Positions 2,065-9,805 of a stretch of DNA of 11,929 nucleotides are shown here, one piece after another. The notes under the pieces are model-generated. The model was not told the DNA's origin, did no database searches, and saw only the letters and a list, made by a program, of their open reading frames with translations. This stretch comes from Cyanobacteriota bacterium (GTDB lineage: Bacteria; Cyanobacteriota; Cyanobacteriia; PCC-6307; Cyanobiaceae): positions 1 through 11,929 of the forward strand of contig CANHSW010000035.1 in NCBI GenBank assembly GCA_947463165.1. The letters run 5' to 3'. Numbering within the stretch: the stretch's first letter is position 1; each line of letters opens with the position of its first letter. A program made the translations under genes and the position numbers.

Positions 2065-2820
2065 ATGTCCCCCACCTGGCCCACCGCCGCCACACCGCCA
2101 GCGCTGCCAGCGCCAGCAGACGGGCCAGCCAGGGCCCCGGCTTCCCCAGCAGCAGTTAGCAGCGCCGTGTGCCCCGACCCCGTTCCCAGCCTGCCCGTAG
2201 TGGAAACCTTCCATTCACTGCAGGGGGAGGGTGTCCATGCCGGGCGCAGTGCCTTCTTCATCCGGCTGGCGGGCTGCCAGGTGGGTTGTAGCTGGTGCGA
2301 TACCAAGCACTCCTGGCCCCTGGCAGCCCATCCGCAGCGGCCCCTGGCCGAGCTGGTGGCGGAGGCGCAGGCCGCCGCCGCCGCCGGGGCGGCCTTCCTG
2401 GTGATCACCGGCGGCGAACCGCTGCACCACCAGCTCGATCCCATCTGCAACGCCCTGCGGCAGCTATCGGCACCGGGCGGCAAAGCACTGCCCCTGCACC
2501 TGGAAACCAGCGGCGTGGATCCCCTCAGCGGCCACTTTGACTGGATTGCCCTATCGCCCAAGCGCCACCGGCCGCCCAGGCCAGAACTGCTGGCCGCCTG
2601 CCACGAACTGAAGCTGGTGGTGCACTGCGGCGACGACCTCAGCTTCGCGGCGGCCATGGCCGCCGCCGCCGCCCGCCGGGGGCGGGATCAGGGACCGGTG
2701 CTGCTGCTGCAGCCGGGGGCCGACTGCGCCGCCGGCCAGCAACTGGCGATCGACTACGTGAAGGCCAATCCAAATTGGCGTCTCAGCCTGCAGAGCCACA
2801 AGCTGCTGGGCCTGCGCTGA
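2065..2820 (+). CDS. queE: 7-carboxy-7-deazaguanine synthase QueE (radical SAM)
   Basis: QueE rearranges 6-carboxytetrahydropterin to 7-carboxy-7-deazaguanine, the ring-contraction step of preQ0/queuosine synthesis. The radical SAM cluster motif CX3CX2C is at Cys71, Cys75 and Cys78 (GCQVGCSWCDTKHSW). The SAM-binding GGEP is at 116-119 (VITGGEPLHH), followed by LETSGVDP and SPK. The substrate-side motif ETFHSLQGEG precedes the cluster, as in the family. The 251-residue frame begins with about 40 residues of Pro/Ala-rich low-complexity sequence not typical of QueE. A GTG at 2167 would give 217 residues, nearer the family length, and may be the true start. Spacing to pyrG (12 bases from this ATG) indicates an operon. 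QueC, the next enzyme but one, is encoded about 1.9 kb downstream after a reverse-strand insertion of other genes. Confidence 0.93.
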   Translation: MSPTWPTAATPPALPAPADGPARAPASPAAVSSAVCPDPVPSLPVVETFHSLQGEGVHAGRSAFFIRLAGCQVGCSWCDTKHSWPLAAHPQRPLAELVAEAQAAAAAGAAFLVITGGEPLHHQLDPICNALRQLSAPGGKALPLHLETSGVDPLSGHFDWIALSPKRHRPPRPELLAACHELKLVVHCGDDLSFAAAMAAAAARRGRDQGPVLLLQPGADCAAGQQLAIDYVKANPNWRLSLQSHKLLGLR

Positions 2821-3198
2821 GCTGTATGGCCAGTTGATTAGCGAGGCTTAAGAAAATTTTAACCACGATCAATTGGGCCCTGATGCCCGCGATGGTCTCA
2901 TCAAAGGCTTTCAGGAAGGGCCCTCAGTTGGCAGCACCGCCGGGAGGACCGCCGGCAGGATCGCCGGCAGGGCCGTTTCCCATGGTTTGCTTAGCAGTTG
3001 CCTGGCGGCCAATAGCCCCAGGGCGCCAATTCACTTGAATAGCAACGCCCTAAGGCCCCGGGAGACCTTGGCGGACTTTTCCTATTGGATTGCCCCTAGG
3101 CAGGCCACTGGCAGCACAGATTGTGCCCACAGAAAGTCAATAAAGACAAAACCATCTAGGGCTTCAGTCCGCGCGACCAACCGCACCGCCGTCAATGA
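2821..3198. other. Non-coding stretch after queE, no convincing gene
   Basis: I see no supported gene in these 378 bases. The stretch holds a 12-bp tandem repeat (2935-2970), two GGGCCC palindromes (2875-2880 and 2918-2923), and a minus-strand mini-frame (2983-2924) that would encode a 19-residue Gly/Pro/Ala-rich peptide. It also contains a + strand frame of 111 codons (2873-3208) with no recognisable motif, which overlaps the end of the better-supported minus-strand small gene. Confidence 0.5.
2935..2970. repeat. 12-bp tandem repeat, 3 units
   Basis: Three consecutive 12-mers are CACCGCCGGGAG, GACCGCCGGCAG and GATCGCCGGCAG. The last two differ at one base. They look like a short slipped-strand repeat in non-coding GC-rich DNA. 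Confidence 0.6.
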
Positions 3199-3420
3199 CT
3201 ATAGATAAAGAACACCAATGCTAATAAGCGAGTTTCCAGTACTGCCAATTCCAACCACATTATCGCCAGAAGCGGTAGACTGATTGAAGTTTGTCAACCC
3301 TCCCAACACGCTGGCACCGCCAAGACCGCCGAAACCGCCAAGCAAGGAGCCAAGCGACGGCCTGGCGCCGCCAGATAGCGCTTCACAGTTCCGATCCGCA
3401 AGCAAGCTGATTTGAGACAC
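3199..3420 (-). CDS. Small protein with double-glycine leader-like N-terminus, glycine-rich centre and DNVVGIG C-terminus
   Basis: No family is recognised with certainty. From the GTG at 3420 the product is 73 residues. The N-terminus ISLLADRNCEALSGG resembles the leader of double-glycine peptides exported by C39-peptidase ABC transporters. A glycine-rich linker follows (LGSLLGGFGGLGGASVLGG), then a C-terminal segment with NFNQ, DNVVGIG and LISIGV. The leader and the C-terminus both align with the neighbouring 55-residue product (3615-3782). In the ten shared residues FNQ + DNVVGIG, six codons differ and all six are synonymous, which argues that both are translated. The start is uncertain: no ATG lies between the upstream terminator (3530-3557) and the leader, so GTG 3420, a TTG at 3405, or loss of the original start are all possible. 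A longer frame reaching 3570 would begin inside that terminator and is not accepted. Confidence 0.55.
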   Translation of the reverse strand: MSQISLLADRNCEALSGGARPSLGSLLGGFGGLGGASVLGGLTNFNQSTASGDNVVGIGSTGNSLISIGVLYL

Positions 3421-3529
3421 AAAGAAAACCGGAAGAAGACCGGATGAATGTTGGCTCTGATTTTCTAGACACGGCTTGAGTGAACATCCAAAGGCGCAGC
3501 GAATATGCAACGTCCAGATAACAAGCAAT

Positions 3530-3557
3530 AAAAAAGCCGCTTGATATTTCAAGCGGC
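3530..3557 (-). terminator. Intrinsic terminator downstream of the 55-residue small gene
   Basis: On the minus strand a perfect 9-bp stem, GCCGCTTGA/TCAAGCGGC (3557-3549 with 3544-3536, loop AATA), is followed by six T residues (3535-3530). A second hairpin, CCTGAC-AAA-GTCAGG (3595-3581), lies between this and the stop codon of the small gene. There is no T-run on the + strand side, so it acts in one direction, ending transcription of the 3615-3782 gene. Confidence 0.88.
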
Positions 3558-3614
3558 ATACACGAGTCAACGATCAATAACCTGACTTTGTCAGGCCATG
3601 ACTGGACTTCAAAA

Positions 3615-3782
3615 TCAGAACAGTTTGATCACGCCGGTGCTAACAAGGCTCAGGTCGCCACCAATGCCAACAACGTTGTCGCGGGTGCCAAACTGGTTGA
3701 AGGACAGAGTAGAACCACCACCGTTGAAAGATTCGGCGCTCTTGTCGGCGATTTCTTGGATAGCAGTGTTGTTTGAGGTCAT
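3615..3782 (-). CDS. 55-residue double-glycine leader-like small protein (RiPP/bacteriocin-like, function unknown)
   Basis: The frame runs from ATG 3782-3780 to TGA 3617-3615, and an in-frame stop lies eight codons upstream, so the start is well fixed. The N-terminal 22 residues (MTSNNTAIQEIADKSAESFNGG) look like a double-glycine leader; the putative mature part has STLSFNQFGTRDNVVGIGG and ends VSTGVIKLF. The leader aligns with that of the downstream small gene: IQEIADKSAESFNGG against ISLLADRNCEALSGG. The C-terminus aligns as FNQ, DNVVGIG, L(V/I)S and GV, with mainly synonymous codon differences. The FNQxG..DN pattern faintly recalls curlin repeats, but with wrong spacing and only one copy. 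A strong terminator follows and an inverted repeat lies in the presumed leader. Export by a C39-type ABC transporter is inferred; no transporter or modifying enzyme is in the window. Confidence 0.7.
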   Translation of the reverse strand: MTSNNTAIQEIADKSAESFNGGGSTLSFNQFGTRDNVVGIGGDLSLVSTGVIKLF

Positions 3783-3798
3783 GGTAACAAAGCGAAGT

Positions 3799-3840
3799 GT
3801 GGATCAGCGGGGACAAGCCCCTCACCTTGTTTAGATCCAC
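3799..3840 (-). promoter_or_regulatory. Nested inverted repeat in the 5' region of the 55-residue gene
   Basis: GTGGATC (3799-3805) pairs with GATCCAC (3834-3840), and inside it GGGG (3809-3812) pairs with CCCC (3818-3821). The structure begins 16 bases upstream of the ATG of the minus-strand gene. It could be an operator, an attenuator-like leader fold or an RNA-stability element. No convincing -10/-35 pair was found beside it. Confidence 0.4.
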
Positions 3841-3964
3841 AAGGAACCTTTGGGCCCCATTTCAGCTAATGCGCTGAGCTTCAACAGCGAAGTGAATAAA
3901 AAACATTCGGCTAAACCGGTATGCGCCAAAACTATTGTTGTCTTCGCCCTCTTCCTGGCAGAAA

Positions 3965-3986
3965 TTCCTGGCCAGCGGGCCAGGAA
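3965..3986 (-). terminator. Possible weak terminator hairpin downstream of ecotin
   Basis: A perfect 8-bp stem, TTCCTGGC/GCCAGGAA with a 6-base loop, lies about 94 bases beyond the ecotin stop codon on the minus strand and is followed there by only TTT. A second copy of CTTCCTGGC at about 3951 could compete for the same arm. It is a plausible but weak terminator; it may instead be an mRNA 3'-end stabiliser. Confidence 0.35.
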
Positions 3987-4079
3987 GAAAATCCAGGCCG
4001 ACTGGCCGATCGAGGCCAGCAAGGCTCCAGACCCGCCTTCCCCAGCCAAAAATCCCAGCCCACCGGCCCCCGCTCCACT

Positions 4080-4604
4080 TCAGGGCAGCGCCAGGGCCGG
4101 CTGGCTGTTGGTCTCCGCCTTCCACAGCCTCCACCGCAGCTGCAGCGGTCTGGGGGCATCCAACACGATCGGGGTACTGACGTTGTAAGAAACCACGAAC
4201 GGCTTGCCGGCCATGGGCACAAAGCGCTCCCGGGGCGGCATGCCGGGGCAGGCCATGCGGGTGGCCACCAGGGGCCCCACCTCGCTCACCCGATACAAAA
4301 TCGGCCCCTGGCCTGCCGCCAGCGGCTCGGGCCTGAGCCTGGCGCTGAAGCTGTACTGGTTGCAATCCACCAGGGTGGTTTGGCCCACGATCAACTCCAC
4401 GCGCCAGTCGCGGGGGTTGGCCGAGATGCTGCCATCGGCGCTGGGGCGCAGCAGCCCAGGCAATTGGATCACCCAGCGGCGATCGCCGGCGGCAGGCGCT
4501 GGATAGCCGCTCAAATCCAACCGCGGGATGGCCCTGGCCGCCGGTGCCGCCGCCAGGGCCAAGCCGGTGAACGCCAGGGCGATCAGTGGACGAAGCATGG
4601 GCAT
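4080..4604 (-). CDS. eco: Ecotin-family periplasmic serine-protease inhibitor
   Basis: Ecotins are secreted dimers that inhibit trypsin-fold serine proteases in the periplasm. The product is 174 residues. A Sec signal peptide (hydrophobic core [14 protein letters not shown], likely cleavage after ARA at 25) precedes the ecotin core. Matches are [20 protein letters not shown] (30-50), [14 protein letters not shown] (69-82), [13 protein letters not shown] (109-121) and RWRLWKAE (157-164). Cys81 and Cys119 correspond to the conserved disulfide. The reactive-site loop reads ATRMAC, so the P1 residue (Met84 in E. coli ecotin) is Arg116 here, which predicts inhibition of trypsin-like proteases. The start could be either of two ATGs two codons apart. 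The gene is divergent from queC across about 110 bases and lies on the same strand as, and upstream of, the 55-residue small gene. The assignment is firm; the natural target is unknown. Confidence 0.93.
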
Positions 4605-4631
4605 TGCCAGCGCACTGGCGACATTTTGACG

Positions 4632-4699
4632 AGCACCGGTGCCCCTGGCAGGTCAATGCCTAGAGCAGGTCACTGCCCCTGGCAGGTAATGGCCTCCAT
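4632..4699. repeat. 17-bp tandem array in the ecotin/queC divergent intergenic region
   Basis: Four 17-bp units lie end to end (4632-4648, 4649-4665, 4666-4682 and 4683-4699). Units 2-4 start with CAGGT, and the shared core CAGGTCA.TGCC recurs at 4649, 4666 and 4683, exactly 17 bases apart. The first unit shares the TGCCCCTGG end with the third and contains the palindrome GCACCGGTGC (4633-4642). The array fills the space between two divergent starts, so it may bind a regulator; slipped-strand duplication without function is also possible. Confidence 0.65.
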
Positions 4700-4715
4700 C
4701 TGCCAGCCTCAGGCC

Positions 4716-5408
4716 ATGCCTGCTGACGCCCCCCCCCTGGCCATCGCCCTGCTCTCCGGCGGGCTCGATTCGGCCACCGCCGCCGCCCTGGCCATTGAAG
4801 CGGGCTACCGGGTGATCGGGCTCTCGTTCAACTACGGCCAGCGCCACCTGCGGGAACTGGAGGCCGCCGCCGCCCTGGCCGCCGGGCTGGGGCTGGTGGA
4901 GCACCATGTAATAGACGTGAACCTGGCCGCCTGGGGCGGCTCGGCGCTCACCGACAGCGCCATCGCCATCCCCACCTCTGGCGTGGAAGCGAGCGGCATT
5001 CCCAACACCTATGTGCCGGGTCGCAACACGGTGTTCATCGCCCTGGGCCTGAGCCTGGCGGAGGCCCGCGGCGCAGAAGCCCTGGTGCTGGGGGTGAACG
5101 CCGTGGACTACTCCGGCTACCCCGACTGCCGGCCCGATTACCTGACCGCCTTCCAGACCCTGGCGGACCTGGCCAGCAGGGCGGGCCGCCAGGGCCGCGG
5201 CGCCCGCCTCTGGGCACCGCTGGTGAACTGGAGCAAGTTGGAGATTGTGCGGCAGGCCCTGCGCCTGGGGGTGCCGATCGCCGACACCTGGAGTTGCTAC
5301 AGCGGCGGCCACCAGCCCTGCGGGCTCTGCGACAGCTGCCGGATTCGCGATGGGGCCCTGATCGAGGCGGGTCGAGCTGATCTGGCCAGTAGCCAGCGGG
5401 AGGCATGA
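4716..5408 (+). CDS. queC: 7-cyano-7-deazaguanine (preQ0) synthase QueC
   Basis: QueC converts 7-carboxy-7-deazaguanine and ammonia to preQ0 with ATP. The product is 230 residues, the usual family length. The PP-loop SGGLDS is at 14-19 ([14 protein letters not shown]), followed by [16 protein letters not shown] (100-107) and [15 protein letters not shown]. The zinc site is formed by Cys194, Cys202, Cys205 and Cys208 in [17 protein letters not shown]. The frame stays open far upstream, but I choose ATG 4716 because it leaves the normal short N-terminus. An in-frame ATG at 4689 lies inside the 17-bp tandem array and is a second candidate. The stop codon overlaps the pabB start (ATGA, 5405-5408), so queC, pabB and the next gene form one operon. 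No preQ1 riboswitch was seen upstream. Confidence 0.95.
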
Positions 5409-6736
5409 GCGGCCTTACCTGGCGGCGGCAGCCGCTGCCCTGGCGGCAGCCGCTGCTGGTGGTGCAGGCCCTGGCCCACCACTACGGCCCGGCCGGGCTG
5501 GTGTGGCTCGATGGCAACGAAAGTCCCTTGGCCGGCATCGGGCGGCTCGGCGTGGCCCCCCACCAGCAACTGGTTTGCCGCGGGCTGCCCGGCGAGGCGA
5601 ACGCCAGTGATCCCTTCATCGCCCTGGAAACGATGGCCCGCAGTGGCGGCCACTGGATGGGCTGGTTGGCCTACGAAGCGGGCGCCTGGGTGGAGCCGGC
5701 GGCCCACTGGCGCTCCTCGCCCATGGCCAGCCTCTGGGCGGCGCGCCACGATCCGGTGCTGGCGATCGATGCCCAAGGCCAGCAGCTCTGGCTAGAGGGC
5801 AGTGAACGGGGGTTGATGGCAGAGCTGACGGCCCTGATCGAGGCCCTGCCCCCCGGTGCTGCCGCTGCGCCGCTGACCAGCCCAGGACCGATCCCGCTGC
5901 ATCTCTGGCAGTGGCACACAAGCCGCCAGAGCTACACCGAGCAGGTGGATCAGATCCGCGCTCGCATCGCCGCCGGCGACCTGTTCCAGGCCAATCTCAC
6001 CGCCTGCTGCGAGCACCAGCTGCAGGCGGAGCCCGATCTGCTGGCCCTCTACGGCCGGCTGCGCCAGCGCTGCCCGGCTCCCTTCGGGGGGCTAGCGATC
6101 GCTGCGGGGGAAGCTGCTGGGGAAGCGGTGCTCTCCGCCTCCCCGGAACGCTTTTTGCAACTGGATGGCCAGGGCTGGGTGGAAACCAGGCCGATCAAGG
6201 GCACCCGGCCCCGCCATGGCGAGGCCAGCGCCGATGCCGAAGCCGCCGCAGACCTGATCACCAGCCCCAAGGACCGGGCCGAAAACGTGATGATCGTGGA
6301 TCTGCTGCGCAACGACCTGGGCCGGGTCTGCCGGCCGGGCAGCGTGGCGGTGCCCCAACTGGTGGCCCTCGAGAGCTACGCCCAGGTGCACCACCTCACC
6401 TCGGTGGTGCGGGGCCAGCTGCGGCCGAATACCAACCTGGTGCAGCTGCTGCGGGCCTGCTGGCCGGGGGGCTCGATCAGCGGAGCGCCCAAAATCCGGG
6501 CCTGTCAACGGCTGGGGGAGCTGGAGCCGGTGCCCCGAGGGCCCTACTGCGGCTCCCTGTTCCGGCTGACGCCCACCGGCGAATTCGACAGCAGCATTTT
6601 GATTCGCTCCCTGTTTGTGCGGGGCCGCAGCCTGCGGGCCCATGCCGGCTGCGGCATCGTGGCCGACTCCGACCCGGCCGGCGAGGCGGAGGAACTGGGC
6701 TGGAAGCTGCAGCCCCTGCTCGACGCCCTGGCCTGA
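5405..6736 (+). CDS. pabB: Aminodeoxychorismate synthase component I (PabB)
   Basis: PabB aminates chorismate to 4-amino-4-deoxychorismate with ammonia from PabA, on the route to p-aminobenzoate and folate. The product is 443 residues with an N-terminal TrpE-like region (MGWLAYEAG at about 85-93) and a C-terminal chorismate-binding domain. Key blocks are FQANLTA (194-200), ASPERFL (245-251), [10 protein letters not shown] (261-270), [20 protein letters not shown] (290-309), [11 protein letters not shown] (323-333) and [11 protein letters not shown] (354-364). The PIKGT motif with Lys265 marks PabB; anthranilate synthase TrpE has PIAGT. It overlaps queC by four bases and shares one base with the next gene (TGATG), so translation is probably coupled. 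pabA is not in the window. Confusion with isochorismate synthase is unlikely because of PIKGT and GSISGAPK. Confidence 0.95.
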
Positions 6737-8599: not shown

Positions 8600-9805
8600 A
8601 TGCCGCAAACACTGTTCAAGGTTGATCTCACCAAGCCGATGGATCAACAGGAAATGCCAGGTCACAACCGCTGGCACCCAGACATCCCGGCAGTGGTTTC
8701 CGTCAATCCAGGCGACGTGTTCAGGATCGAATGCAAAGACTGGACGGACGGCCAGATTAAAAACAACGACGACCCCAAAGATATTGCCGATGTAAACCTA
8801 GAAGTGGTTCACGTTCTCAGTGGCCCCATATGGGTTAATGGCGCTGAACCCGGCGACATTCTTGTTGTCGACATTCTCGATGTTGGAGCCCTTCAGGGTG
8901 ATGAATGGGGCTTTACTGGCATCTTCGCCAAGGAGAATGGTGGTGGCTTCCTCACCGACCACTACCCCAATGCCGCCAAGGCGATTTGGGACTTTGAAGG
9001 CATCTATACCAGCTCCCGCCACATTCCCGGCGTGCGCTTTGCCGGCATCACCCACCCCGGTCTGATTGGCTGCGCCCCCTCCCACGAGCTGCTCAAGGAG
9101 TGGAATCGGCGCGAAACAGAGCTAGTGAATACCGCCCCAGACATCCGCACCTATGGCGCCGGCCTATCGGGCAGCGAACCGGTGCTGGCCGCCCTGCCCA
9201 ACCCCAATAGCGCCATCCTCGGCACCCTGGCCAGCTCCGAGTTTGAGCGGGTTGCCAACGAGGCGGCCCGCACCGTGCCACCGCGGGAGCACGGTGGTAA
9301 CTGCGACATCAAAAATCTCACCAAGGGCACCAGGATTTACTTCCCAGTTTACGTAGAAGGTGGCAAGCTATCCATGGGAGACATCCACTTCTCCCAAGGC
9401 GACGGCGAGATCTCCTTCTGCGGCGCCATCGAGATGTCTGGCTATCTCGATCTCCACGTGGATATCATCAAGGGTGGCGTAGCCAAGTACGGCATGGTTA
9501 ACCCCATGTTCAAGACCAGCCCCGTGGAGCCACATTTTACCGATTACCTGGTATTCGAAGGCATCTCAGTTGATGAATTCACCGGCAAGCAGCACTACAT
9601 GGATGTGCACATTGCCTACCGTCGCGCCTGCTTGAATGCCATCGAATATCTCAAGAAGTTTGGCTACACCGGCGAACAGGCTTATCTGCTATTAAGCTGT
9701 GCTCCCGTGGAAGGTCGCATCAGCGGCATCGTGGACATCCCCAACGCCTGCGCCACCCTGGCCATTCCCACATCGATCTTCAATCAAGACATCTTGCCCC
9801 GTTAA
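8600..9805 (+). CDS. fmdA: Formamidase (FmdA/AmdA family)
   Basis: This cytoplasmic amidohydrolase hydrolyses formamide to formate and ammonia. It has 401 residues, close to Methylophilus FmdA (about 407). Recognisable family blocks are GHNRWHPDIPAVVSVNPGD (21-39), GAEPGDILVVDILD (81-94), ITHPGLIGCAPSHELL (150-165), RTVPPREHGGNCDIKNL (224-240) and MGDIHFSQGDGEISFCG (259-275). The RTVPPRE.GGN.DIK and GD.HFSQGDGEI motifs are diagnostic of PF03069 and separate it from nitrilase-type AmiF formamidases. A promoter with an NtcA site lies just upstream and a strong terminator follows, so it is probably monocistronic. The FmdB-like zinc-ribbon gene is next, and urtE is convergent beyond it. Acetamidase activity is possible in the family; formamide is the likeliest substrate given the length and motifs. 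Confidence 0.93.
   Translation: MPQTLFKVDLTKPMDQQEMPGHNRWHPDIPAVVSVNPGDVFRIECKDWTDGQIKNNDDPKDIADVNLEVVHVLSGPIWVNGAEPGDILVVDILDVGALQGDEWGFTGIFAKENGGGFLTDHYPNAAKAIWDFEGIYTSSRHIPGVRFAGITHPGLIGCAPSHELLKEWNRRETELVNTAPDIRTYGAGLSGSEPVLAALPNPNSAILGTLASSEFERVANEAARTVPPREHGGNCDIKNLTKGTRIYFPVYVEGGKLSMGDIHFSQGDGEISFCGAIEMSGYLDLHVDIIKGGVAKYGMVNPMFKTSPVEPHFTDYLVFEGISVDEFTGKQHYMDVHIAYRRACLNAIEYLKKFGYTGEQAYLLLSCAPVEGRISGIVDIPNACATLAIPTSIFNQDILPR

Follow-up and report, generated by a model that had tools for sequence, protein, structure and literature searches.

Paralogous double-glycine peptides A and B, apart from any C39 exporter, in a probable low-GC insertion of a Cyanobiaceae genome

The window, that is, the whole stretch of DNA analysed here, is one entire contig of 11929 bases from a 2.27 Mb assembly in 332 contigs that is 77.7% complete. 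It carries two small genes, A and B, whose features are listed in Table 1. Two minus-strand frames of 55 and 73 residues with a common leader and C-terminus had been described in a sequence-only reading of this DNA, and both the coordinates and the shuffle tests given below agree with that description. The frame of B is open further upstream, so that its GTG is the likely rather than the proven start. When the upstream bases were judged by eye, no clear Shine-Dalgarno sequence was seen before A or B. Both putative mature peptides are rich in Gly and Ser (14 of 55 residues are Gly in the B core), and the Gly-rich insert reported right after the GG site of the longer member is present. A structure prediction for B made from 30 sequences (mean pLDDT 54) was uninformative except for a leader helix at residues 9-16.

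Table 1. The A/B locus and its surroundings, in positions of the window.
Feature	Positions	Strand	Details and basis
ORF A, short pair member, 55 aa	3615-3782	minus	ATG...TGA; frame listing and leader profile
Leader of A, MTSNNTAIQEIADKSAESFNGG, putative cut after GG	3717-3782	minus	residue spacing as in relatives
Putative mature A, 33 aa	3618-3716	minus	3.4 kDa, 0 Cys
ORF B, long pair member, 73 aa	3199-3420	minus	GTG...TAG; leader profile and core match to G074 long peptide
Leader of B, (V/M)SQISLLADRNCEALSGG	3367-3420	minus	leader profile
Putative mature B, 55 aa	3202-3366	minus	5.2 kDa, 0 Cys
Gly/Leu-rich insert at start of putative mature B, absent from A	about 3295-3366	minus	
Strong intrinsic terminator in the A-B gap, downstream of A	3557-3536	minus	MFE -15.9 kcal/mol, z -3.98
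Probable inserted segment	2824-3869		GC 52.6% vs 62.2% for the window; congener comparison and GC
Direct repeat copy 1, 11 bp, TGCGCTGAGCT, end of upstream gene	2813-2823	+	exact match to copy 2
Direct repeat copy 2, 11 bp, TGCGCTGAGCT	3870-3880	+	exact match to copy 1
Ecotin-family gene	4080-4604	minus	PF03974, E 3.5e-29

Common to A and B are a leader of the double-glycine type and, towards the C-terminus, the blocks FNQ, DNVVGIG and SL(V/I)S. Their leaders align with a score of 35, reached in 0 of 10000 shuffles, and their cores with a score of 57, reached in 1 of 10000. Across 50 aligned codons the residue is the same in 23, and the same codon is used in 8 of these 23; the differences at codon positions 1, 2 and 3 number 25, 17 and 35. 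Six of the ten codons of FNQ+DNVVGIG had been reported to differ with every change synonymous, and a re-count gave the same figures, all six changes being at third positions (probability 3.5e-4 if six changes were scattered at random among the 30 bases). Judged from these alignments, A and B are paralogues.

The pair sits between a gene upstream that we take to be queE-like and the ecotin-family gene, these two being arranged tail to tail. Positions 652-2823 and 4042-5533 of the window match the corresponding locus of a congener, G059, at 91% and 94%, and the stretch without a match there is 2824-4041; the flanking genes are nearly adjacent in G059, with 12 bases between them against 1218 in the window. 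A second congener, G087, is also without the inserted stretch, so that a low-GC stretch of about 1.05-1.2 kb with A and B is missing from both. GC along it is 0.44-0.62, compared with about 0.7 farther out. The DNA of the ecotin-family gene is present in both congeners too. The 11-bp direct repeat may be a target duplication; short repeats like TGCGCTGAGCT also occur by chance. Because most of the 150 bases past repeat copy 2 are likewise absent from G059, the borders of the insert are uncertain. The genome of the window holds no second copy of the stretch, other matches being of 45 bases or less.

With E allowed up to 10, searches of Pfam and NCBIfam gave 0 families for either A or B, and Rfam gave no match; the statement that the core belongs to no described family thus holds against Pfam and NCBIfam. 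A protein search with A in 201 family genomes found no significant relative outside the window's own genome. Matches at E≤1 occurred in 30 of the 201, at 37 places besides the window's own, all with E>0.01, and those inspected (29 of 37) belonged to longer frames that encode other proteins, the sole exception being in G155 (L026, about 1501-1593, minus). This is a 94-aa frame with a GG-leader-like VPIQEVTDQELEAIHGG close to the A leader (E 0.245) and a core unlike that of A. The pattern DNVxGxG was present in six of 400 family genomes, and none of the five matches outside the window's genome, all of which were inspected, was a GG peptide. In genome_contigs, neither a relative of A nor the fixed pattern FNQ-12-DNVVGIG was found; phages searched with A and viral contigs searched with the A/B alignment gave none either. 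A class-wide profile search matched 4 of 388 genomes, one of them (G591) from another family of the class. Its GG-leader peptides (L175, 5103-5429 and 8443-8697, minus) have SNVVAGG/DNIVSGG-like cores.

Small frames with GG leaders were sought beside 20 C39 exporters, and in G087, of the same genus as the window, four such frames stand in a row directly before the exporter. A seed profile of A, B and seven GG peptides from beside C39 exporters, run on 400 family genomes, had matches in 30 of them at E≤0.05; the strong ones are mostly tandem sets, and the weakest are probably chance. Addition of 20 further loci brought the list to 63 peptides, A and B included. For an independent comparison with the pair, a profile of 59 rows (23 genomes) was built without A and B, omitting also the G062 and G076 peptides and six frames that failed the site rule, two of which were restored for the core tests (subgroup profiles, and motif counts in 65 cores).

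Against the 59-row profile the leader of A scored 10.0 bits (0 of 5000 shuffles, although narrowly, the shuffled maximum being 9.9) and that of B 20.2 bits (0 of 5000, shuffled maximum 12.0); at full length the score was reached by 1 of 5000 shuffles for A and by 0 of 5000 for B. The A leader has hydrophobic residues at -4, -12 and -15 and GG at -2/-1, the same as the relatives. With A or C at -7 and no E at -8, both leaders differ from the consensus quoted in the part of PMC3140520 drawn on here. The cores alone behave otherwise: shuffles do as well as A in 4132 and as B in 4582 of 5000, and against six groups of cluster cores neither does better than shuffles (lowest count 206 of 3000, for B and a two-member group). 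Since leaders match and cores do not, membership is shown for the leader and not for the core. A Q-x-N motif occurs in 59 of 65 cores (shuffled mean 15), with A and B among the six lacking it. The motif A[FI]NI occurs in six of the 65 (shuffled mean 0.27), for example as NQINLAFNIVLNGG in G087, and is absent from A and B. When 30 GG-peptide sequences were scanned, the best E was 0.0017 in NCBIfam and 0.023 in Pfam. Two more GG-leader frames, with other cores, lie apart from the C39 cluster of G217 (L183, 5788-6504, minus), and in G199 a gene for a sigma-70 family factor is found directly upstream of the GG-peptide cluster (L120, 9263-10264, minus).

Of the 20 loci that the peptide profile turned up, 15 carry a complete homologue of the G087 exporter (domains PF03412, ABC_membrane and ABC_tran), two carry a fragment, and three carry none in the stretch examined, the last being G059 and two loci of G179, one of which is on a contig that ends some 340 bases past the peptides. 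Four further loci, chosen by C39 and having exporters by construction, were left out of this count; with them, 19 of 24 have a full exporter. HlyD comes after the exporter in each of the three loci examined for it. In G158 (L127, about 9177-9263) and G107 (L130, about 4950-5192) the C39 exporter is cut to an N-terminal fragment beside intact GG-peptide frames. Genes for polysaccharides (UDP-glucose dehydrogenase, glycosyltransferase 2, GH26, epimerase) are seen by GG/C39 clusters at L067 (5328-10162), L118, L122, L125 and L126.

Beside A and B there is neither a C39 exporter nor a recognised immunity gene. The 11.9 kb contig has no match to the peptidase part of the C39 exporter, an ABC ATPase fragment at the contig end being all that matches. 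The sequence-only reading had called for a C39 peptidase/HlyD exporter to be sought in the genome, and the search came out negative: PF03412 was absent from the one assembly of this genome (0 of 1, 77.7% complete), and the closest exporter match is a 993-aa cNMP-binding ABC protein beside an HlyD gene, with no C39 match. For comparison, 49 of 101 family genomes, the congener G087 among them, have a C39 domain at E≤0.001, and in 45 of these it scores above the cut-off. In G059, another member of the window's genus, there are two GG peptides, and C39 again gave no match. With no C39 domain found in the genome of the window, export would take place in trans, or has been lost. The proposal of an exported two-component peptide system stands in part: it is supported as regards a selected two-gene set with GG leaders, and so far unsupported as regards a C39 exporter in this assembly and a choice between bacteriocin, signal and matrix.

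A profile of A and B only was run on 399 genomes of the order and matched five at E≤0.02, the window's own included. Two of the four other, weak matches lie in long frames of another reading, and one belongs to the G250 cluster of GG peptides. The fourth was a GG peptide of G032 with the ending NIGSIGTSLVSVGAIYL, compared with VVGIGSTGNSLISIGVLYL in B; an E of 0.007 over 399 genomes is not significant on its own. The case for this long relative in G032 is made instead by the leader, the C-terminus, the order of the pair and the orthologue in G074, a genome of the same genus as G032 and not of the window's. The long member of this pair ends IGSIGTSLVSVGAIYL, compared with IGSTGNSLISIGVLYL in B, and in both genomes a shorter GG peptide is encoded directly upstream of it, in the same order as in the window, between methyltransferase and class II aldolase genes. 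Measured from the stop codon of the short gene to the probable start codon of its long neighbour, the gap is 82 nt in G032, 148 nt in G074 (85 nt if an earlier start is taken) and 194 nt in the window.

The alignment of the B core with the G074 long core was equalled in 0 of 10000 shuffles and with the G032 long core in 1 of 5000; within G074 itself the core of the short peptide is similar to that of the long one (5 of 10000 shuffles), as A is to B. A has a weak likeness to the G032 and G074 long cores (199 and 110 of 5000 shuffles) and none to their short cores (2546 and 2797 of 5000). The search for orthologues thus recovered the long peptide and the pair, and did not establish by sequence that A is orthologous to the short peptide. 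Divergence between G032 and G074, estimated by NG86 and given here as values that carry no error bars, is dN 0.142 and dS 0.619 for the short gene (52 codons; dN/dS 0.23) and dN 0.290 and dS 0.963 for the long gene (71 codons; dN/dS 0.30); in the last 24 codons of the long gene dN/dS is 0.081/0.678. These ratios, which are not near 1, answer the question the earlier reading had put to dN/dS, and by this measure the pair is under purifying selection in the genus of G032 and G074. The stretches examined around their pair loci yielded no C39 exporter, and both genomes have one on another contig. Counting the window, a short GG gene followed by a long one is thus seen in three genomes of two genera, at two different chromosomal sites. 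Leader match, recurrence of the pair and dN/dS combine to indicate that A and B are real, conserved, orphan GG peptides.

The reading we prefer, at a probability of about one half, is that A and B are orphan GG-class paralogues, exported in trans, that act together as EbfG-like surface or matrix peptides. Their leaders of 18-22 residues would be cut after GG by a C39-peptidase ABC exporter during export, with release of Cys-free peptides of 33 and 55 residues. No C39 exporter adjoins the cassette, which would draw on one in trans, and mature A and B would then act together outside the cell. Support for this function is indirect, coming from EbfG and from the genes around the clusters. The model is EbfG1-4 of Synechococcus elongatus, GG peptides that are required for biofilm formation and secreted with PteB, a C39 protein, according to the cited part of PMC4997328; EbfG1-3 form amyloid, with a hotspot A-Phi-N-I-(G/S), LAFNIG in EbfG2, as given in the cited sections of PMC9981879. 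The six cluster cores with A[FI]NI agree with this hotspot at four of its five positions, since in each of them the following residue is neither G nor S.

The genes around the clusters point the same way. A gene for UDP-glucose dehydrogenase (at least 69% identity) lies beside five of 24 clusters, those of G087 (the query), G250, G217, G126 and G143, and by each of them stand one or more further homologues of a glycosyltransferase, an epimerase or GH26. The five come from three genera, and so are perhaps three independent cases. Such neighbours favour the view that the clusters serve at the surface or in the matrix; to carry that role over to A and B is to infer, because the cores differ. Against an EbfG-like role it must be said that the polysaccharide link is a feature of the clusters and not of the window pair, that A and B are without A[FI]NI and Q-x-N, and that the assembly has no C39 domain. 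It is tempting to speculate further, though we think it rather unlikely, that the pair forms a self-contained mobile cassette of about 1 kb that moves between sites and borrows the C39 exporter of its host, its homologous, beta-prone C-terminal cores co-assembling outside the cell into a surface or matrix polymer that is heteromeric and differs from EbfG.

Among the alternatives, a two-peptide bacteriocin, with A and B exported and jointly killing related cyanobacteria, is the least improbable, although still unlikely. Bacteriocins typically have GG leaders and C39 exporters, the B core is Gly-rich (14 of its 55 residues), and in the cited portion of their paper Wang et al. 2011 (PMC3140520) name such cyanobacterial clusters bacteriocin clusters. 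The terminator between A and B argues against it, as does the want of a recognisable immunity-like gene among the listed ORFs of the insert, which were judged by eye rather than searched singly. The partners of classical two-peptide bacteriocins are, moreover, usually unrelated, whereas the cores of A and B are homologous to each other.

Somewhat less credible is that the pair is a relic, gained by transfer and left without its exporter, its genes unexported and drifting in this species. The absence of a C39 domain from the assembly would fit, as would the low GC and insertion relative to congeners, the GTG start of B with no clear Shine-Dalgarno sequence, and the precedent of G107 and G158, where exporter fragments adjoin intact peptide frames. 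Yet A and B are still uninterrupted frames, the conserved block shows nothing but synonymous changes between them, and the assembly is just 77.7% complete. That A and B are signalling peptides sensed by neighbours is improbable: the short conserved C-terminus is under selection, and GG peptides act in cell-to-cell communication in other bacteria (PMC7018657, in the part cited), but no receptor or regulator is recognised directly beside either pair locus, the neighbours being the queE-like and ecotin genes in the window and the methyltransferase and aldolase genes in G032 and G074. Chance ORFs that are not genes would account for the shortness of the frames, the empty library searches and the plain search with A that gave no significant homologue, but are already contradicted by the leader and paralogy statistics and by a conserved pair with dN/dS of 0.23 and 0.30, and scarcely merit belief.

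A conserved pair apart from its exporter suggests that cargo and exporter are separately heritable in picocyanobacteria, and two defined sequences make the role of such peptides (matrix, killing or signal) testable. Exported GG peptides are easily missed because their leaders are short and their cores diverge fast; the pair was not found described in the open-licence literature, which omits most subscription papers.

Of the systems with which A and B can be compared, the CTB family bacteriocin NF038167 is matched weakly by four of 30 GG-peptide sequences (best E 0.0017) and by neither A nor B at E up to 10; the best match scored 18.5 bits against a curated cut-off of 32. A and B are also without an NHLP/Nif11-type leader (0 families in Pfam and NCBIfam, E up to 10). 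Prochlorosins share with them the possibility that precursor genes are scattered away from their machinery (PMC10783134, in the passages cited), and the orphan layout is therefore not new in kind; unlike prochlorosins, a core without Cys would form no lanthionine rings. The tandem clusters of GG peptides and short-type C39 exporters (Wang et al. 2011, PMC3140520, as cited in part) have the leader in common with A and B. There the relatives adjoin a short-type C39-ABC exporter, with HlyD where checked, whereas A and B have no C39 exporter nearby and a core unlike the cluster cores tested. EbfG1-4/PteB of S. elongatus PCC 7942, compared here by description and not by sequence, differs in that its genes form an operon of four near the exporter gene, where A and B are an orphan pair without one, and in its hotspot core A[FI]NI, common to six of the 65 cores of the related clusters and absent from A and B. 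It resembles A, B and the related clusters, as far as the cited parts of PMC4997328 and PMC9981879 describe it, in being a set of small GG peptides with no known core domain, and the related clusters in having a C39 exporter.
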